Source of the DNA: Arenimonas maotaiensis
GTDB taxonomy: Bacteria; Pseudomonadota; Gammaproteobacteria; Xanthomonadales; Xanthomonadaceae
DNA: 64,000 nt
Assembly (NCBI RefSeq): GCF_014638745.1
Contig: NZ_BMFO01000002.1
Span: forward strand, 186,001-250,000
Direction of reading: 5' to 3'
Of the stretch, positions 7,261 through 48,340 are shown piece by piece; the first letter of the stretch is position 1, and every line of letters begins with the position of its first letter. A program made the position numbers and the translations under genes. Below the pieces are notes generated by a model, which was given only the letters and a program-made list of their open reading frames with translations, searched no databases and was not told where the DNA came from.

Positions 7261-8088
7261 TTATGCCGGGTTCCGCAAGGCCTGTTCGATGCGCGCCTGC
7301 TCGAATCCGGCGGCGGTTTCGCCGCTGATCGCATAGCGGTACAGCACGGCGGTGTAAACGGCTGATACCGCCGATTTCACGATCACCAGCAAGACCATGG
7401 CGGCGGCGCACAGGCCGGCCACCGCGACCGCCAACGCCGGCGACGCGCGGAACGCGAAGAACACCGCGGCCACCGATGCCAACAGCAGGGCGCTGAACGC
7501 CGCCTTGTAGCCGGCCCAGATGCCCACGGTGCCGATCAGGTTCTCGCCCCAGGTGCGTTTCAGCAGCTTGCCGCTTTCCACGATAGCGTCGATCGGGCCG
7601 ATTTTCCGGCTGAGCAGCACCGGAATGACCAACAGCGTGGCCACTTGCCAGGCCATGCCGGCGGCGGCCGTCACCGCGTTCTCCAGGCCGCGGCGGCGGC
7701 GTTTGCCGCGGCGCAGCAACAGGCCCGCGGTGGCCGATATCGCGGCAAAGCCCAGAATCGGCAGCGCGTGCGCGTTGGCCAGGCGCAGGCCGTCGCCCAG
7801 CGTCGGATTACCGCCATCCAGGCGGATCTGCGCGGCGCCGACCAAGGCCGCGTTGAAATAGTGGATCACCATCGCCTGGCACAGGTAAAAGCCGAACACG
7901 AGCGCCATGTTGAACGGCGCGAGGCCATGTTCGAGCAGGCGGCCCAGCATCAGAGGCACGGCGAACACGGCGATGACCGCCAGCGACACCAAGCCCGACA
8001 GCGCCGGAAACAGCAGCAGCTCCTTGTCGTCGCGCAATACCCCGAAGCAGGCTTTCAGCAAATCCCAGCTGCGACCGAATTGTTCCAT
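7261..8088 (-). CDS. Multi-spanning membrane protein, DUF6159-like
   Basis: A 275-residue integral membrane protein beginning MEQFGRSWDLLKACFGVLRDD, a start typical of proteins annotated as DUF6159 family. After this amphipathic N-terminus come about six hydrophobic segments, a very basic loop (RRGKRRRRG, about 140-150) and a C-terminal cytosolic tail (RYAISGETAAGFEQARIEQAL). The start at 8088 has GAAGCGGA just upstream; the frame extends further but without homology. The family resembles glycerophosphodiester-type membrane domains but no activity is known. The stop codon is 13 nt from the convergent rnpB end, so the two transcripts probably overlap or share a termination region. Confidence 0.75.
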   Translation of the reverse strand: MEQFGRSWDLLKACFGVLRDDKELLLFPALSGLVSLAVIAVFAVPLMLGRLLEHGLAPFNMALVFGFYLCQAMVIHYFNAALVGAAQIRLDGGNPTLGDGLRLANAHALPILGFAAISATAGLLLRRGKRRRRGLENAVTAAAGMAWQVATLLVIPVLLSRKIGPIDAIVESGKLLKRTWGENLIGTVGIWAGYKAAFSALLLASVAAVFFAFRASPALAVAVAGLCAAAMVLLVIVKSAVSAVYTAVLYRYAISGETAAGFEQARIEQALRNPA

Positions 8089-40208: not shown

Positions 40209-41472
40209 TCTTGGATCTCATGATCAGTGTAATCCATGCTATAGCAGCCATGGTTGTTTCCGATGCAGTGACAGCGATGCATAGACCCATCACGCCGTGC
40301 TTAGGAAGTAAAGTAACTGCCAATAGAATCAGTAGAGTCACGCCAATGCCTTCGATTGCTGATCTGTAAAGCGGCATGGATTGCGTAGTTAGGATTGTCG
40401 TTCCCGATATCCTCAATGAAAGCGAGATGGAAAAAACAGATAGATACGGCAGGATTTCGGATAAATAGGCATACTCACTTCCAAAAGCAAGACTTAACAG
40501 TGGCGCGGCATGCCAGGTCGTGGCCGCCAAGAGCAGTCCATACAGCCCCGAAGCCGTGAATATTGCAAGCGTTTTCTGTTTCGCGGCGGAACGATCTTTT
40601 TCTCCGAACAGGGAGGGCATCACAGAAATCATCAGTGCCATTACCGGAAGCGTGGCGGCACTAATCAGCCTGGCCGAAAGTGAGTAGTGGCCTGCTATGT
40701 CGGCAGTCAGAAGCTTGGCGGCGACTGTCTTGTCCGCCTCGGATGGACCTATTGTGGTAGCGCTCTGCACAGCAAAGCCTGATGCGGATTTCACTTCTGC
40801 CATGGTCGGTCTCCGCCAGTATTTAGGTCCTGGCCATTTGCCTGGCTGCAGCTTAATTGCTACGAATAGGCTTATTACTGATGATGCCAGGTACAATCCG
40901 GCATAAGTTGACTCAACGTTCTCGTTTGGCCAAGCGGCAAGGAAAAAGACAGAAGCACACCGCAGGGCAATTGGCAGGGTGAGGATTATCTGAGATCGGG
41001 CTATCTGATTCCTTGCTTGGTACTCCATGCAAGACAGTAGAATAAATGGCTGTATGACGGTTTCTGCTATTCCCAAGGCTATGACCGTATGCAAGTTCGC
41101 GCCCAAGTTTATTAAACTCAACGCAAACAGATACAGAAGAAGCATTAAGATTCCGGCCACGAGCGTTGTCCAGAGAGCATATTCAGCTACTATGCTTCTG
41201 CTCTTGCCTTGATCCCCTGCCGATGCTTTCAGGATAATGAAATGCATGCCAAGCGTTGATAGTGAACCGGAAAGCACTGCCGCCGCGGAAAGTCCGGCAA
41301 AAATGCCGAAACTTGAGGCTCCCAGAGTCTTGGCAAGAACAATCAGCGTTGAGGCCTGAAGGAAAAGTCTGAGCAGGAGTACGTTGCTAGTCAGTAGCGT
41401 GTTTCTGGCAACTGATCCCTGGCTAAAATGCTTTTTCATGAATGGCATCATGATTCGTAATTTTTTGATCAT
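40201..41472 (-). CDS. Wzx-like oligosaccharide flippase
   Basis: A 423-residue membrane protein with about 12 hydrophobic segments, of the polysaccharide-synthesis/MATE-like superfamily. The start is LLLRLFLQASTLIVLAKTLG with ASSFGIFAGLSAAAVLSG, the usual first helices of Wzx proteins; HYSLSARLISAATLPVMALM and PYLSVFSISLSLRISGTTIL are in the second half. It would move a lipid-linked oligosaccharide across the inner membrane. Its ATG overlaps the stop of the GT-C gene (ATGA), so the two are translated together; ATGs at residues 8, 9 and 12 are alternative starts. No Wzy or ligase for O-antigen is nearby, which fits a flippase serving pilin or another protein target. Confidence 0.82.
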   Translation of the reverse strand: MIKKLRIMMPFMKKHFSQGSVARNTLLTSNVLLLRLFLQASTLIVLAKTLGASSFGIFAGLSAAAVLSGSLSTLGMHFIILKASAGDQGKSRSIVAEYALWTTLVAGILMLLLYLFALSLINLGANLHTVIALGIAETVIQPFILLSCMEYQARNQIARSQIILTLPIALRCASVFFLAAWPNENVESTYAGLYLASSVISLFVAIKLQPGKWPGPKYWRRPTMAEVKSASGFAVQSATTIGPSEADKTVAAKLLTADIAGHYSLSARLISAATLPVMALMISVMPSLFGEKDRSAAKQKTLAIFTASGLYGLLLAATTWHAAPLLSLAFGSEYAYLSEILPYLSVFSISLSLRISGTTILTTQSMPLYRSAIEGIGVTLLILLAVTLLPKHGVMGLCIAVTASETTMAAIAWITLIMRSKNE

Positions 41473-43391
41473 TCAGGTGGTGGAGCTATTTGGGATTGGC
41501 TCATTTTGGCTATTTCAATAGCCTTCAGCCATTTGCGGGACTGATCTTTTGGATCGTACATCAGCGTGTCGAAAAAAGGCTGTTTGATTTCCAGGCCTTT
41601 TTTAAGCCATTGCTCCGCGTCATCCACTAGGCCGGCACTAAGCAGCACTTCAGCGATTTTCTGGGTCAATTCCACCGATGGCCCGACTGTATATGCCCTC
41701 TCAAGTTCGGTCATGGTCAGGTCGAGATCGCGTCGGTGAATAAACAGCTTGGCGCGCTCCACACGGATGTGCTGTTCCGACACGGCGCGGAATTTGGGGT
41801 TGGCGAGCAGGGCATCCGTCAATGTAAGCCATTGCGTCTGATCGATGGCGTCCGGACAAGCGTTTTCCTGCACGGCCTGGCGAAGCAGCAACAGGCTGCT
41901 CAAGACGCTGTTCGAATAGCTGCTGACCCCAATTGCCTGAGTACTGTCTTGGTATAGGTCACGGCTTGTCTGAACAGTGGGATTCCAGCATTTCACCAGC
42001 AGAGCCGCCATCGGCAGGTCGGCCTGCCGGATGCCGCCGTCGTAGGCCTGCATCAGGCCATCCAGCGCCTCTTGCGGCTGTCCGCTATCGTAACGGTACT
42101 TGGCGACGTCTTGCGCGGCGCGAAGGGACAGCGGCCGCTCCTTGACCCAAAGCGCCGTCATCAGCTCCGCGTTGCCCCACACCGGTGCCTGCAATGCGGT
42201 AATTATCGCCAACAATGCAAGCCATAGTGAAAACAGTGCGGTAGCTAGGCGTTGACGCTCGCCCAATAGAAAAGGCAGTGCTGACAGCGCCAAGACCGGG
42301 CCGAGCAGGGGCAGGTAGTTGCGGTGCTCGAAGAACAGTTCCAGGTCCAGGATGCTGGACTCCATGGCATGGCCGGCGAAAAACCAGAGAATGGCGAAAC
42401 TCAGTATTGGGAAACGCTTCCGTTTGGCGATAGCGAACAGCAGACTTGCCGCGAATCCTATCGCCAGAAGTAGGGTGCTGACCGGCTGAGTCCAGGAGCG
42501 GGTCACCGGATAGTCGTCAAAGTAGATGCCGCTACCGGACAGGCGAGGCATGAAAATATGGCGTAGATAGTCGGCCAGTACATGCATTTGCGTCATCAGC
42601 CGCTCCGGCATGTTGAAGTCGCGGCTGGAAAATGTACCAGGGCGTGTAGCCATGTACAGTATGGCGGCAAATACGGCCAAGGACGGCAAGATGCACGCCC
42701 ATTGGATAAAGCGGCGAATGGCTAATGGTTTACCTGCTAGCGTTTCGCGAAGCAGGGTGGCATTCAATACCAAAGCAAATAGTGGCAACAGCGCGCCGTT
42801 TTCCTTGCTCAAGGAGGCCAGAATGGTACAGATGCCGAGCACGCTGAGCGCGGCGAATGCGCTCAGTACCGATTTGGCGCGTTGCAGCAGGGCGATATAG
42901 CCCCACAAGCCGATGAAGCAAAAGGCGGCGGACAGCAAGGTCATCCGTTGTACTACCAGCATCTGCGCCGAGAGCTGGAGCGGGTGAAACAGCCAGGCGG
43001 CCATGGCCAGCAAGGGCCAGAACGGGCTTTGTGGCAGGGATGGGTTGGCCTTGGCCAGTTGCCGTAGCAAGCCGAACAGCAGCACGCCGTTCAGCAGATG
43101 GATCATCAGGTTGGTGTATTTGAAGCTGAATGGATCGCTGGGCCAGGCGCTGTCGTTGATCAGGAAGCTAAGCGCCGAAATCGGTCGGCCGGGGCTTCCA
43201 ATGAAAGACGTCAAATAACGGCCTAGATTGTCCCCTGCATTGCCGCTGAGTAACTCCAGGTTCTGCAGATTAGGGAAATCGTCGAACACGAATGGCCCGC
43301 TGAGCGCCGGCCAACCCAACCCGGCATAGACCACCAATAACAGCAGTAAAGTAGCAGATGGAATCAATGCATGTTTGCGGGTCAGAATCAT
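41469..43391 (-). CDS. GT-C membrane protein with C-terminal TPR-like domain, candidate pilin glycosyltransferase
   Basis: A 640-residue protein with about 10-12 membrane helices followed by a soluble helical domain (about 430-640) that ends with TPR-like repeats (LTMTELERAYTVGPSVELTQ, then LSAGLVDDAEQWLKKGLEIK). The first periplasmic loop begins PFVFDDFPNLQN: an acidic pair (Asp37-Asp38) after helix 1 is the expected catalytic site of GT-C glycosyltransferases. GRPISALSFLINDS and LMIHLLNGVLLFGLLRQLA resemble TMTC-like O-glycosyltransferases. It lies directly after pilE, 84 nt away and past a terminator, and is coupled to a flippase and a glycosyltransferase. This context suggests it glycosylates the pilin, but it is not a PglL/TfpO (no Wzy_C motif seen). 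Confidence 0.7.
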   Translation of the reverse strand: MILTRKHALIPSATLLLLLVVYAGLGWPALSGPFVFDDFPNLQNLELLSGNAGDNLGRYLTSFIGSPGRPISALSFLINDSAWPSDPFSFKYTNLMIHLLNGVLLFGLLRQLAKANPSLPQSPFWPLLAMAAWLFHPLQLSAQMLVVQRMTLLSAAFCFIGLWGYIALLQRAKSVLSAFAALSVLGICTILASLSKENGALLPLFALVLNATLLRETLAGKPLAIRRFIQWACILPSLAVFAAILYMATRPGTFSSRDFNMPERLMTQMHVLADYLRHIFMPRLSGSGIYFDDYPVTRSWTQPVSTLLLAIGFAASLLFAIAKRKRFPILSFAILWFFAGHAMESSILDLELFFEHRNYLPLLGPVLALSALPFLLGERQRLATALFSLWLALLAIITALQAPVWGNAELMTALWVKERPLSLRAAQDVAKYRYDSGQPQEALDGLMQAYDGGIRQADLPMAALLVKCWNPTVQTSRDLYQDSTQAIGVSSYSNSVLSSLLLLRQAVQENACPDAIDQTQWLTLTDALLANPKFRAVSEQHIRVERAKLFIHRRDLDLTMTELERAYTVGPSVELTQKIAEVLLSAGLVDDAEQWLKKGLEIKQPFFDTLMYDPKDQSRKWLKAIEIAKMSQSQIAPPPE

Positions 43392-43428
43392 GATGTGCTC
43401 AAAAGTCGGGACCGAACCAATGTGGCAT

Positions 43429-43454
43429 AAAAAAGCCCCCTTGCGGGGGCTTTT
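43429..43454 (-). terminator. Terminator of pilE
   Basis: On minus: GCCCCC, loop GCAA, GGGGGC followed by six T. It starts 22 nt after the pilE stop and would end most pilin transcripts before the GT-C gene. A T-run of four on the other strand gives weak bidirectionality. Confidence 0.88.
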
Positions 43455-43475
43455 ACATCTTCGATAATTCGAAAA

Positions 43476-43904
43476 TTAACGGCAGTTAGACGGACGATAC
43501 TTGTCATCCACGCTACCGCCGGTTTTGCAGTCCCAAGTGACCGAGCCACCGGCAGCGGCCGGGGTCAGCACCAGAGTGTCATTATCAATGTTGGTGTCGG
43601 TCGAGGAATAGGTAATGGTGATGATACCGCTGTTACCCACGGCAACTGAACCCACGTCATTACCTTTGATGGAGCCAGAGGCCGGCAGGCCAGCGGAGGC
43701 GTTATTAGTCGGGAACGCGCCAGTGGACGACTTGGTTTCAGCCACAGCCAGCTTGGCGGCGCCGGCGAGGTTCATGCCTTCCGAGACCTTCGAGCGGGTG
43801 GTGTAGTCTTGGTAAGCCGGGATGGCGATGGCCATCAGGATGCCGAGGATCGCGATCACGATCATCAGTTCGATCAGCGTAAAACCTTTTTGAATAGCTT
43901 TCAT
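43476..43904 (-). CDS. pilE: Major type IV pilin PilE/PilA
   Basis: A 142-residue type IVa prepilin. The leader MKAIQKG is cleaved by PilD before Phe, and the hydrophobic N-terminus FTLIELMIVIAILGILMAIA with Glu5 is diagnostic. The globular part is short; the C-terminal disulphide loop is Cys126-Cys141 (14 residues between), and the protein ends SNCR. The mature domain is rich in Thr, Ser, Asn and Gly, a suitable surface for O-glycosylation. ATG at 43904 has GGGAG eight bases upstream; the open frame extends 59 codons further without pilin features. Flanked by pilR/pilS upstream and a candidate glycosylation operon downstream. Confidence 0.96.
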   Translation of the reverse strand: MKAIQKGFTLIELMIVIAILGILMAIAIPAYQDYTTRSKVSEGMNLAGAAKLAVAETKSSTGAFPTNNASAGLPASGSIKGNDVGSVAVGNSGIITITYSSTDTNIDNDTLVLTPAAAGGSVTWDCKTGGSVDDKYRPSNCR

Positions 43905-43973
43905 GGTGGAACTCCCTGAGAGGTAAATGGACTCGCACTGCGGCAGCGGTTCAATGCAGCCGCCGTGGGGTGC

Positions 43974-43990
43974 GCTATCAAGATGCCCCA
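43974..43990 (-). promoter_or_regulatory. Sigma-54-like promoter of pilE
   Basis: On minus, TGGGGCATCTTGATAGCG carries GG and GC exactly 10 nt apart (43987-43986 and 43975-43974); the surrounding bases match the -24/-12 consensus at GGCA and T-GC. Transcription would begin near 43962, about 58 nt before the pilE ATG. Pilin genes in Pseudomonas are RpoN-dependent and activated by PilR; in Neisseria gonorrhoeae a sigma-54 pilE promoter survives as a relic. A conventional sigma-70 alternative is not obvious, but the degenerate PilR leaves use of this site in doubt. Confidence 0.45.
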
Positions 43991-44018
43991 ATTCAAGGCC
44001 GTATGCAAGTTTTTTTTG

Positions 44019-44040
44019 ATTTGCCCCAGTCCGGGCAAAT
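44019..44040. promoter_or_regulatory. 8-bp inverted repeat upstream of pilE
   Basis: ATTTGCCC (44019-44026), CAGTCC spacer, GGGCAAAT (44033-44040), perfect dyad with 22-bp overall length. It centres about 68 bp upstream of the proposed pilE start and is next to an eight-base A/T run (44010-44017). It is not a terminator because T-runs are on the wrong side. A dimeric regulator, most simply the PilR-like protein next door, is the likely ligand. Confidence 0.5.
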
Positions 44041-44104
44041 GTGAAAGAAATGAGGCGCTTAAAGCCGGAAAAACGGCCCAAAAACCGGCCCTGAGGGGCA
44101 GAAT

Positions 44105-44121
44105 GTGACGCTGTGCGTCAC
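44105..44121. promoter_or_regulatory. 7-bp inverted repeat at the pilR end
   Basis: GTGACGC-TGT-GCGTCAC, perfect, just after the pilR stop codon. No T-run follows on minus. It may be a distal activator site for pilE (about 150 bp from the proposed start) or a transcript-end hairpin of pilR. Confidence 0.4.
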
Positions 44122-44122
44122 C

Positions 44123-45397
44123 TCATTCCATGCCCAGTTTTTCCATCTTGTAGCGCAGTGCGCGGAAGGTGATGCCTAGGTGCGCGGCGGCCTTGGTCTT
44201 GTTGAAGCGGCAGGCTTCCAAGGCGGCCTGGATCTGGGCGCGCTCCAATTGCTCCACCGCTTCGGGCAGGGCTTTGGCCGTGGCTGCGGCCGGTGCGGCC
44301 GGCTCCGGACGGCTGAAACGCAGGTCGCCGGCGTCGATCAGGTTGCCGTCGGCCAAGGCCGCGGCGCGTTCCAGTACGCTTTCCAGCTCGGGCACGTTGC
44401 CCGGGAACGGATGCGCCAACAGGGTCTGTTCGGCGGCCGAGGTCAGGCTCAGGGCGTGGCCGTCGCCGCCGATTTCCTCGAGGAAGGCGTGCGCCAGCGG
44501 CAGGATGTCCTCGGGCCGTTCGCGCAGCGGCGGCACCGGCAGCTCGATGACGTTGATGCGGTACAGCAGGTCGTGCCGGAAGCGTTGGGCGGCGGCTTCG
44601 CGCACCAGGTCCTTGCGGGTGGTGGACAGGATGCGCACGTCGATGGCGGTGTCGGCGAAAGCGCCGATGGCGCGGATGGCCTTGTCCTGAATGGCTTTGT
44701 GCAGCTTGATCTGCACCGGCAGGGCCAACAGATCGACATCGTGCAGCAGCAGGCTGCCGCCTTGGGCGGCCAACATGGCGCCGGCCTTGCCGAACAGCGA
44801 GGCTTCCTGCTGGTCGGGCGCGATGGCGGCGCATTCGAACTCGATGAAAGGCGCCGGCGCGCGCGGACCTTGGCGGTGGATCTGCTTGGCCACCAGGCAT
44901 TTGCCCACGCCCGCCTCGCCGGTGATCAGCACCGGCGCCTGGCTGCGGGCCAGGCGCCCGATCTGCTCGCGCAGGCTCTGCAGGCCGGCCGACTCGCCGA
45001 CCAGGGTCTCGCCGGTATCGGTCTGCCGCTCGCGCAGGGCCAAGGCCTGCTGCACCAGCTGGCGCAGGGTGCCCAGGTCGACCGGTTTGCTGACGAAGTC
45101 GAAGGCGCCGGCCTTCAGCGCGTTGACCGCCGACTGCACGTCGCCGTAGGCGGTGATCATCGCGATCGGCATCGCCCGGTGGTGTTCCGCCACGTGCGCG
45201 ATCAGGTCCAGGCCGCTGCCGTCGGGCAGGCGCATGTCGGTCAGGCACAAATCGAAGCGCCGGGCCAGCAGATGCTCCTTGGCCCGGGTCACGGTTTCGG
45301 CGGTCTCGACCGCCAATCCCATGCGCGACAGCGCCAGGCTCAGCAGGTCGCGGATGTCTTGTTCGTCGTCGACGATCAGGGCGGAGGCGTTGGGCAT
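44123..45397 (-). CDS. pilR: PilR-like response regulator with degenerate AAA+ domain
   Basis: A 424-residue NtrC-type regulator. The receiver is intact (acidic pair Asp10-Asp11, phospho-acceptor Asp54 in CLTDMRLPDGSG, Lys104). The AAA+ domain keeps a Walker A core (GEAGVGK, 160-166, followed by Cys) and both arginine-finger residues in FRHDLLYRINV. But the segment between CAAIAPDQQEASLFG and GGSLLLHD is about 20 residues shorter than in normal family members, so the GAFTGA loop that contacts sigma-54 is absent; the Walker B reads LLLHD where LFLDE is expected; and the sensor II motif is GNVPELE in place of GNVRELE. The Fis-type HTH (LERAQIQAALEACRFNKTKA) is normal. It probably binds DNA but cannot remodel sigma-54 holoenzyme. 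Confidence 0.85.
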   Translation of the reverse strand: MPNASALIVDDEQDIRDLLSLALSRMGLAVETAETVTRAKEHLLARRFDLCLTDMRLPDGSGLDLIAHVAEHHRAMPIAMITAYGDVQSAVNALKAGAFDFVSKPVDLGTLRQLVQQALALRERQTDTGETLVGESAGLQSLREQIGRLARSQAPVLITGEAGVGKCLVAKQIHRQGPRAPAPFIEFECAAIAPDQQEASLFGKAGAMLAAQGGSLLLHDVDLLALPVQIKLHKAIQDKAIRAIGAFADTAIDVRILSTTRKDLVREAAAQRFRHDLLYRINVIELPVPPLRERPEDILPLAHAFLEEIGGDGHALSLTSAAEQTLLAHPFPGNVPELESVLERAAALADGNLIDAGDLRFSRPEPAAPAAATAKALPEAVEQLERAQIQAALEACRFNKTKAAAHLGITFRALRYKMEKLGME

Positions 45398-45444
45398 GGG
45401 CTCAGTATAGGTCAGTGTCGGGGAATCGGCGGGCGCTCATCGGA

Positions 45445-47040
45445 TCAGCCCGGCTTGCCGAGCAGGTCGCGGCCGCCGGCCAGGCGCAGCAGGAAGCGGC
45501 TGCCGCCGCCGAGCATCGGCTCGAAGCGCAGTTGCGCCTGGTTGGCGTCGCTCAGCTGTTTGGCGATGTACAGGCCGAGGCCGGTGCCGTGTTCGCTGGT
45601 GGTGTGGAACGGGCTGAACAGATGCTCGCGCATCGGCTCGGGGATGCCCGGGCCGCGGTCGGACACGTCCAGCACCGGCTGCCGGCCGTCCAGGCGCACG
45701 CTGAGCGTGACCTGCGGCGCCTCGTGCGGATGGTGACCGTAGTGCAGGGCGTTGGTCAGCAGCACGGTCAGCACCTGGTGCAGGTGCGAGCGGTCGAACA
45801 GGCCATGCAGGGCGGTGGCGTAAGGGGCCAGGCGGATGTTGGCGCGGTCCTGCGGGTGGGTGCTGAGGTGTTCGTCGAGGAAGGCCTGCACGAAGTCGTT
45901 GAGTTCGATGTCCTGCGGGCTGGCGGTCTCGCGCCGGGCCAGGCTCAGGATGTTTTCGATGATGCCGTTCAAACGCTGCGCCTGCTTGCCGATGATGTCG
46001 AGCAGCTTGCGGTCGCCCTCGGACAGCTCGGGCGAGTCGGCCATCAGCTGCTGGGCGTAGCTGATGGCGGCCAACGGGTTGCGGATCTCGTGCGCGATGC
46101 TGGCCGACAGCCGGCCCAGGTTGGCCAGCTGCAGCTCGTCGGCGCGGCCGGAGAACACCCGGCTGTCCTCCAGGAACACCAGGTAATGCAGGTCGTGCAG
46201 CGGAATGCCGACGAAGCGCGGAATCACCACCGGGCCGCCGACGTACAGGGACAGCGCCTCCGGCCTCTGGTCGGGCTGCCGGCGCCAGGCGATCAGCCGG
46301 CGGTCCAGCTCGGGCAGCGAGGCGCGCAGGGCCGTGCCGCGCTCCAGCGTCTTCTGGCTGAGTTGGTCGGCGGCTTCGTTGTGCAGCACCAGCCGGTGGT
46401 GCTTGTCGAGCAGGATCACGCCGGTGCGCATGCGCTTGATGATCAGCTCGTTCATCTGCGCCATCTCGGCCAAGTGCTGGCCGCGCTCGTCGGCCAGGTC
46501 CTGGCTCAGCCGGGCCTGCGCTGCCAGCATCTGGCAGAACGCCACGGTGGCCGCGTAGCAGGCCGCGAACATCAGCGCCTGCACCAAGTCGCCGCCGCTG
46601 CCGCCCTGCAGGCGGGCGCCCAGATAATGGCCGAGCACCACCAGCATCGCCGCCGCGGTGATCGCGGCGCTGGCGCGCCGGCCCAGCAGCACGCCGCCGG
46701 CCGCCAGGTTGACCAGCATGATCAACGCCACGCTGTAGAAGCCGGCCGGCAGCAGCCAGGCCAAGCCGGCGAACACCGCCAGATCGAGCGACAGGCCGGA
46801 CAGCGTATGGTTCGGGTTCGGCCCCATGCGGTTGAGCAGCAAAATCAGCGCCGAGCCGATCAGGTAGGCGGCGCTCAGGCCTTGCAGCAGGCCATTGGCG
46901 GTCTGTTCGCGGATCGGACCGTAGGGCGAGAACACCCACAGCGCCAGGATGGCGGCCTCCAGGCAGCGGAACAGCGCGAAGAAATACATCTCGCGTTGGC
47001 GCAGGCTGTCGGAACTGGCGGCTTTCAGGGCTAAGGCCAT
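45445..47040 (-). CDS. pilS: PilS-type sensor histidine kinase
   Basis: A 531-residue membrane kinase paired with the regulator 47 nt downstream. The N-terminal third has six hydrophobic segments (about 20-165), as in Pseudomonas PilS, which senses pilin in the membrane. A PAS-like linker (residues about 195-290) follows, then the dimerisation/phosphorylation domain with [20 protein letters not shown] (His317) and the ATP-binding domain with [16 protein letters not shown] (N box), [10 protein letters not shown] (G1) and [13 protein letters not shown] (G2). All kinase motifs are complete, unlike those of its partner. I chose ATG at 47040, since the upstream 54 codons overlap the sucC promoter region. 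Confidence 0.9.
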
Positions 47041-47107
47041 TGATTTCGCAAGGGTTCGGGCGGGCCGGTTGTCTTGGAGTATACGGGGGAATTCCCGGTT
47101 TTTGCCT

Positions 47108-47134
47108 TTGACCGCGCAAAAATGCGACAATAAT
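47108..47134 (+). promoter_or_regulatory. Possible sucC promoter
   Basis: TTGACC (47108-47113) followed 15 nt later by AATAAT (47129-47134) in the 136-nt divergent gap between pilS and sucC. Sequence of both hexamers is good, the spacing is short. Confidence 0.38.
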
Positions 47135-47176
47135 GGCCCTTTTCCGGGTCCTGCGCCCGTTCCCACAAGGTGTCGA

Positions 47177-48340
<1,164 letters not shown>

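Follow-up and report, generated by a model that had tools for sequence, protein, structure and literature searches.

Paired loss of the GAFTGA loop of PilR and the sigma-54 site of the pilin promoter in a small-genome Arenimonas-like lineage

The pilS-pilR-pilin locus and the altered PilR

The stretch of DNA analyzed here (the window) comprises 64,000 nucleotides of the genome of Arenimonas maotaiensis (G000), which is 2.16 Mb in size, consists of 16 contigs, and is rated 100% complete. Arenimonas belongs to the Lysobacteraceae. The minus strand of the window carries pilS, pilR, and a type IV pilin gene, and sucC-sucD adjoin on the opposite strand (Table 1). The order sucD-sucC, kinase, and PilR is found in all 12 loci that were read, with the pilin gene following within the stretch in 11 of the 12. 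Directly after the pilin gene, at 41469-43391, is a gene for a 640-aa protein that has a hydrophobic N-terminal part and no Pfam match. A gene that resembles it by eye also follows the pilin in locus L045, and the encoded protein is perhaps a pilin-modifying membrane enzyme. An Rfam scan of positions 43000-48000 gave no match.

Table 1. Position, strand, and basis of the features at the pilS-pilR-pilin locus (window coordinates).
Feature	Position	Strand	Basis
pilA-like main pilin, 142 aa	43476..43904	-	ORF, Pfam
TTGCAT-N17-CATCTT block, candidate new pilin promoter; common to four reduced genomes; weak match to the sigma-70 consensus	43980..44008	-	promoter comparison
Palindrome GTGACGCACAGCGTCAC, candidate PilR site	44105..44121	-	promoter comparison
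pilR variant, 424 aa: receiver, AAA+ without loop and catalytic residues, Fis HTH	44123..45397	-	ORF, Pfam, alignment
Fis-type HTH, residues 377-424; highest mean identity within the deleted type	44126..44269	-	Pfam, alignment
Codon 336, Pro for sensor II Arg; in 2 of 68 deleted-type proteins	44390..44392	-	alignment
Walker B site His219-Asp220; Asp-Glu in canonical PilR	44738..44743	-	alignment
Junction Gly203-Lys204, place of the missing 12-residue loop with GSFTGA	44786..44791	-	alignment
Codon 188, Glu for switch Asn; Asn in 48 of 48 canonical and 0 of 68 deleted-type proteins	44834..44836	-	alignment
Walker A GEAGVGKC, residues 160-167; Lys166 invariant in 68 of 68	44897..44920	-	alignment
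Receiver phospho-acceptor Asp54 codon; invariant in 68 of 68	45236..45238	-	alignment
pilS histidine kinase, HisKA and HATPase_c above Pfam cut-off; coordinates from the first ORF start	45445..47202	-	ORF, Pfam

The window PilR has Pfam matches above cut-off to a receiver, a Sigma54_activat AAA+ domain, an AAA+ lid, and a Fis-type HTH. The receiver Asp, AAA+ domain, and Fis HTH, together with the adjoining PilS and a place among congeneric PilRs in the tree, identify the protein as PilR-type. An earlier sequence-only reading had described it as a PilR-like regulator that lacks the GAFTGA loop, and a motif check of the whole 424-aa ORF for G[AS]F[TS]GA found no match. The loss is smaller than the approximately 20 residues suggested at that time, as alignment with relatives indicates that exactly 12 residues are gone between LFG and KAG. 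The remaining residue assignments of that reading agree with the alignment and Pfam results. Specifically, His219-Asp220 stands where relatives have Asp-Glu in Walker B, Pro336 replaces the sensor II Arg, and D54, the Walker A core with K166, and the arginine fingers (R274 and R280) are retained along with the Fis HTH; T82 and K104 are retained as well. The partner kinase PilS, which that reading described as intact, has both the HisKA and the HATPase_c match above cut-off. The role names used for these PilR residues, including the arginine-finger assignment, are those that we presume to apply. An additional change that the earlier reading did not contain is the replacement of the switch Asn by Glu at position 188. 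In the glutamate-switch model of PspF, the switch Asn is coupled to the Walker B Glu (from an excerpt of PMC7175178). Of the features of bEBPs, the window PilR has the arginine fingers and lacks GAFTGA, the Walker B Asp-Glu, the switch Asn, and a -24/-12 target promoter.

The structure of PilR was modeled with AlphaFold2 using an alignment of 66 rows, giving a mean pLDDT of 83.4, a pTM of 0.69, and block means of 79-94 over residues 131-300. The place of the loop is modeled as a short stretch between helices 194-202 and 207-210. The best PDB matches identified by Foldseek are structures of Brucella NtrX (32-33% identity), some of them complexes with ATP or ADP; for the AAA+ part, the match to active NtrC1 has a TM score of 0.88 by target length. 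As modeled, the AAA+ fold is predicted to be intact, with the sigma-54 tool and the catalytic residues gone.

Distribution and phylogeny of the loop-less PilR

The genus sample consisted of 27 congeneric genomes, including that of the window. PilR was found at E 1e-80 in 20 of these genomes, and 18 of the 20 proteins contain GSFTGA; the two without it are those of G000 and G141. No PilR was found at this threshold in the other seven genomes, most of which are incomplete or fragmented MAGs, and neither PilR nor a pilin was found in G129 and G138. In addition, 29 PilR loci (three of them congeneric) were read from among 118 other genomes with a match, and all 29 have GSFTGA, or GSFSGA in two cases. 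These results rule out a loss of the loop throughout the genus or throughout the family, and they answer in the negative the question of whether all relatives in the genus share the loss, which the sequence-only reading had proposed as a check. The four reduced genomes (G000, G141, G132, and G134) appear to form a single lineage, so that the change counts once and not four times. The placement of G132 and G134 with the other two follows their small genomes, their pilin promoters, and the similarity of their RpoN sequences in place of a genome tree; the contig of G134 holds only a C-terminal part of PilR, which resembles P0020, and the PilR of G132 is not on the contig.

Homologues of the window PilR were collected as the best 120 of a set of scored candidates that was capped at 8000, all under the set threshold, and were aligned with the window protein. 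The alignment contains 68 full-length proteins with the exact deletion (many of which are near-copies), 48 canonical proteins, and five proteins of partial or other form that were left out of the 68 (P0068, P0070, and P0090 are partial, and P0069 and P0072 have other forms). The Walker B Glu is absent from all 68 deleted-type proteins, in which the aligned position 220 is occupied by His (54), Asp (10), Arg (2), or Asn (2), and the Walker B Asp is present in 42. The switch Asn is also absent from all 68. Lys166, Asp54, T82, and K104 are each present in 68 of 68, and the arginine fingers are similarly conserved (R280 in 68, R274 in 66). The sensor II residue is Arg in 65 proteins, His in one, and Pro in two (the window protein and P0001); Pro is also found in P0069, P0072, and the partial P0070, all outside the 68. 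Overall, 154 of the 424 positions are invariant across the deleted type. Mean pairwise identities within the 68 are 0.95 for the HTH, 0.88 for the receiver, 0.82 for the AAA+ core, and 0.78 for the lid, as compared to 0.88, 0.87, 0.88, and 0.67, respectively, within the 48 canonical proteins; deleted-type proteins are thus somewhat less conserved than canonical ones in the AAA+ core and more conserved in the HTH.

In a tree of 74 rows, 42 loop-less sequences form one clade with support of 100/100 and a long stem branch (1.37), and this clade is placed among the GSFTGA PilRs of Arenimonas-like bacteria with support of 93/83. Four main groups are apparent: the window protein with P0001, the P0023 group, P0020 with P0067, and a large group that includes P0002 and L037. 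P0069 and P0072 are sister to the other loop-less sequences; in both, part of the loop remains and the switch Asn is kept, and the Walker B Glu is lost. Comparison of pilR between G000 and G141 gives a dN of 0.22 and a dS of 1.03, for a dN/dS of about 0.2 as a crude estimate. A PilR without GAFTGA was also observed in an Oceanospirillaceae MAG (L044:4974-6326), with Asn-Asn at Walker B. This protein has a very long branch in the tree and represents a second, separate loss of the loop; its gene is located near an intact kinase gene and pilin-related genes, and rpoN is present in the same genome.

The pilin promoter and the remaining sigma-54 components

Sigma-54 sites were scored out of 15 points using weights and a -24/-12 geometry that we assume to be suitable, with p values from mononucleotide shuffles (300 in the first run and 200 in the second). 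Only the main pilin (MKxIQKGFTLIELM or similar) was counted, leaving aside two further pilin-like genes of G000. In sixteen congeneric genomes the GSFTGA PilR is verified and a main pilin nearby can be read; 15 of them have a -24/-12 site of at least 13 points 104-115 bp before this pilin. The shuffle p of the 15 sites is at most 0.005, and at most 0.013 for the nine that were also scored in the other run. The exception is G136, which has a GSFTGA PilR, the palindrome, and the third half-site described below, and a score of 11/15 (p 0.355) at its nearby pilin. Outside this comparison are G137 and G140 (GSFTGA PilR, nearby main pilin off the contig), G135 (only another pilin read), G131 and G128 (sigma-54 site present, PilR partial), and G018 (another genus, no pilin in the stretch). 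Further pilins have a sigma-54 site in G076, G124, and G127 and have no good site in G103, G119, G120, G121, G125, G128, G133, and G139. No sigma-54 site was found at the six pilins scored in the reduced genomes, where the best scores are 11/15 in G000 (shuffle p 0.43 and 0.375 in the two runs), 10 and 10.5 for the two pilins scored in G141, 10.5 in G134, and 10 and 10.5 for the two pilins scored in G132. With the reduced genomes as one apparent lineage, the pairing of PilR type with promoter type looks like one event, with G136 as one partial exception.

The reduced genomes contain a different element in this place. Among the six pilin promoters read at the pilR locus in G000, G141, G134, and G132, five have TTGC-N19-CATCTT (TTGCNN and CATCTT with 17 bp between them) at -104 to -119, a descriptive count in that the block was read off the same sequences; none of the other pilin promoters compared matches more than 8 of its 10 letters. 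In G141, the pilin that immediately follows pilR lacks a sigma-54 site, the palindrome, and the block, and the latter two are instead found before the second pilin. A scan of positions 43850-44200 with the sigma-70 consensus identified no promoter, and CTTGC-N19-CATCTT occurs at chance frequency in the genome (2 matches versus 3 for the control), so it is the shared position that argues for the candidate block. Just upstream of this candidate promoter, at 44019-44040, is an inverted repeat (ATTTGCCC-N6-GGGCAAAT) that is private to the window, being absent from the other reduced promoters aligned.

The second element of the reduced promoters is a perfect 17-bp palindrome, GTGACGC-N3-GCGTCAC, which is present in four of the five block-bearing promoters, each from a different genome; in the remaining one, that of the second pilin of G132, GTGAC-N7-GTCAC is matched at 9 of its 10 letters. 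In 16 of the 17 main-pilin promoters of the canonical type this shorter form is recognizable (shuffle p of 0.02 or less), and it is weaker in G133 (p 0.12). The center of the palindrome is located at -136 to -146 from the start inferred via the sigma-54 site in 16 canonical promoters, and at -131 to -142 from the start inferred via CATCTT in the five reduced promoters. Both the enhancer distance and the place of the promoter are therefore nearly kept, suggesting replacement in place. In contrast, a third half-site (TGAC) is present in 18 of 18 canonical promoters versus none of the five reduced promoters, a count that is likewise descriptive, having been read off the sequences in which the half-site was recognized. 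Counted over whole genomes, the strict palindrome has 5 matches in the four reduced genomes versus 0 for the control, and 4 of the 5 are at a pilin; the other congeners have 11 forward matches versus 11 for the control. The palindrome is probably the site bound by PilR. A role as the pilR terminator is ruled out, as the palindrome stands before the pilin in congeners where the pilin is kilobases from pilR.

At 44074-44087, between the palindrome and the pilin promoter, is a hairpin with a T tail that resembles a terminator (1 versus a shuffle mean of 0.4) and possibly ends pilR. The only other strict GTGACGC-N3-GCGTCAC in G000 (C1:723050-723066, L230:1501-1517) is flanked by ETF-alpha-like and NAD-dependent epimerase-like genes and is possibly a second PilR target; no second strict palindrome was found in the G141 genome.

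The genes for sigma-54 function have been retained. The rpoN gene is present in 26 of the 27 congeneric genomes (one match is in two pieces), and the single miss is a 74%-complete genome. With regard to a functional rpoN, another check proposed with the sequence-only reading, G000 has a full-length RpoN that ends in ARRTVAKYRD, which we take to be the RpoN box; its last residue is Asp, compared to Glu in relatives. The RpoN proteins of the small genomes (L001, L153-L156) match Pfam Sigma54_DBD with 174-189 bits, lower than the 222-233 bits of the congeners with an unbroken match. The true bEBPs of G000, counted without three weak matches of 25-29 bits, are two: the deleted PilR and an NtrC-like GAFTGA protein beside an NtrB-like kinase. 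Similarly, the small genomes G129, G132, G134, and G138 have one GAFTGA NtrC-like bEBP each. In G141, the deleted PilR is the only bEBP match at E 1e-15; this genome (L155, L184) is a 2.1-Mb MAG in which rpoN is present, and the lone loop-less PilR may reflect an incomplete MAG or a sigma-54 that has no activator to work with. A TGGCAC-N5-TTGCA site is located directly before glnA in G000. The glnA-type pattern has 2 true matches in this genome versus 3 for the reversed control, so it is the position of the site that argues for it. The presence of rpoN, a GAFTGA NtrC, and the glnA site suggests that sigma-54 is probably kept for nitrogen and not for pili, and the same three observations rule out a genome-wide loss of sigma-54 as the cause of the changes in PilR.

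A proposed change in the mode of action of PilR

Taken together, these results make it likely that PilR is no longer a sigma-54 activator and that the activator and the pilin promoter changed together in a small-genome Arenimonas-like lineage. The broader claim, that PilR acts outside of sigma-54 and that the pilin is on a sigma-54-independent promoter, is probably correct. The proposal of the sequence-only reading that a pilin regulator had left the sigma-54 mode is supported and strengthened to this extent, as the sigma-54 site was lost with the loop, the palindrome was kept, and the change is fixed across the clade. Its description of the product as an ordinary phospho-dependent DNA-binding protein fits less well with the invariant P-loop Lys and R280 and with a palindrome at enhancer distance, unlike the position expected of a classical proximal activator.

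The mechanism that we propose is modeled on NtrC of Rhodobacter capsulatus. This protein, in which the loop is deleted, requires phosphorylation and the binding, not the hydrolysis, of ATP, and functions with the sigma-70 polymerase (excerpt of PMC10274813). The window PilR has the corresponding features of a lost loop and a kept P-loop, and a P-loop Lys that never varies, combined with the absence of the catalytic Glu, is what a protein of this kind would be expected to show. Since all 68 proteins have the P-loop Lys and R280, nucleotide binding is probably still of importance. In the proposed mechanism, PilR would act without its GAFTGA loop, catalytic Walker B Glu, and switch Asn on a pilin gene without its -24/-12 site and third half-site, and transcription of the pilin now seems to be carried out by a sigma-70-type polymerase, with a new start at about the position of the old one. 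The retained parts of the circuit would be PilS, three features of PilR (the phospho-acceptor Asp, the P-loop Lys, and the HTH), and a single strict palindrome approximately 140 bp upstream of the predicted start. PilS would phosphorylate PilR, which would bind the palindrome in a dimeric or small oligomeric form, carrying ATP that it does not hydrolyze. From this distant site, PilR would then raise the level of transcription by the housekeeping polymerase, in the way reported for R. capsulatus NtrC. By analogy with that system, the chance that PilR is an ATP-binding, enhancer-bound activator of the housekeeping polymerase is put at just short of even.

The alternative that survives best is that PilR is a repressor or gate, in which a dimer on the palindrome would lower a constitutive sigma-70 pilin promoter. 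Both explanations drop the sigma-54 mode and differ in the sign of regulation. Simple dimer binding would fit the absence of the catalytic residues and the third half-site, and the GAFTGA-less NtrC of Caulobacter activates glnBA and represses other genes (excerpt of PMC10274813). However, a repressor site approximately 131-142 bp upstream of the predicted start would be unusual without looping, and the candidate promoter is poor relative to the sigma-70 consensus, as expected where help is needed. Repression is consequently thought unlikely, with activation judged about twice as likely. It is improbable that PilR is instead a decaying remnant beside a constitutive pilin. The lost catalytic residues, the variety of letters at position 220, and the seven congeneric genomes without PilR, including two also without a pilin, would be compatible with decay, but the 68 full-length proteins with their invariant positions, the retained receiver site and HTH, the dN/dS of about 0.2, and the perfect 17-bp palindrome before the pilin in four genomes all argue against it. 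Given that the genome encodes RpoN and a GAFTGA NtrC, PilR could in principle still function with sigma-54 without a loop of its own, for example in mixed rings with NtrC; the pilin promoter lacks the sigma-54 site that glnA has, and G141 has no other bEBP match at E 1e-15, making such an arrangement very improbable. Finally, a sequencing or assembly error, including the base-call problem that the sequence-only reading had allowed for, can be set aside in view of the identical in-frame 12-residue deletion in all 68 proteins and in the separately assembled G141 (L037).

Comparison with characterized systems places the change from the sigma-54 mode proposed for PilR in context. Similar to PilR of the Pseudomonas aeruginosa PilSR system, the window protein has an adjoining kinase, a receiver-AAA+-Fis layout, and a pilin gene as its evident target. 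P. aeruginosa PilR binds with sigma-54 at pilA (excerpt of PMC6058289), and the window protein differs from it in the absence of GAFTGA, the Walker B Glu, and the switch Asn, and in a pilin without a sigma-54 site. The loop deletion resembles that of the GAFTGA-less NtrC proteins of R. capsulatus and Caulobacter. In contrast to these, the regulon here is pilin and not nitrogen, the origin is separate and within Lysobacteraceae PilR, and the ancestral sigma-54 promoter is still visible in congeners. NtrX is part of the NtrY-NtrX system, which distinguishes it from PilR, and the identity of the PilR model to Brucella NtrX is limited to 32-33%; the likeness is that this best structural match also lacks GAFTGA in the alignment, as does Caulobacter NtrX (excerpt of PMC10274813). 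VpsR of Vibrio cholerae is also among the structural matches and is a GAFTGA-less bEBP said to regulate sigma-70 promoters (the same excerpt, where it is spelled VspR). VpsR is not a PilR, and the title of its PDB entry names c-di-GMP binding. A precedent in cis is provided by the Neisseria pilE promoter, which is RpoN/Npa-dependent in commensals and RpoD-dependent in pathogens (excerpt of PMC6528607). The same excerpt describes no converted activator for the RpoD form, whereas in the present case the activator and its site are kept in altered form and rpoN is retained.

Among the matches listed in searches of an open-licence literature library, there was no report of a loop-less PilR or of PilR together with Arenimonas. 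The label "sigma-54-dependent transcriptional regulator" that NCBI gives to some members of the clade is misleading. The case bears on how a regulator can leave the sigma-54 mode, with its ATP-driven ring and special promoter, without breaking the circuit; to our knowledge, most work on GAFTGA-less regulators concerns proteins in which this step is already complete. The fullest version of the present proposal is more tentative than its parts: an ATP-binding, non-hydrolyzing PilR would drive the sigma-70 polymerase from the same site near -140, the promoter, half-site array, and AAA+ motor would have decayed in step as rpoN stayed for nitrogen, and P0069 and P0072 would be steps on this path, intermediates that are still alive. 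In this genus the ancestral arrangement is found beside the new one, which is fixed in its clade, the presumed enhancer has not moved, and partial forms exist. Because ancestral, fixed, and partial forms coexist, it can be tested directly in which order the changes occurred and which parts an enhancer-bound sigma-70 regulator needs at a minimum.
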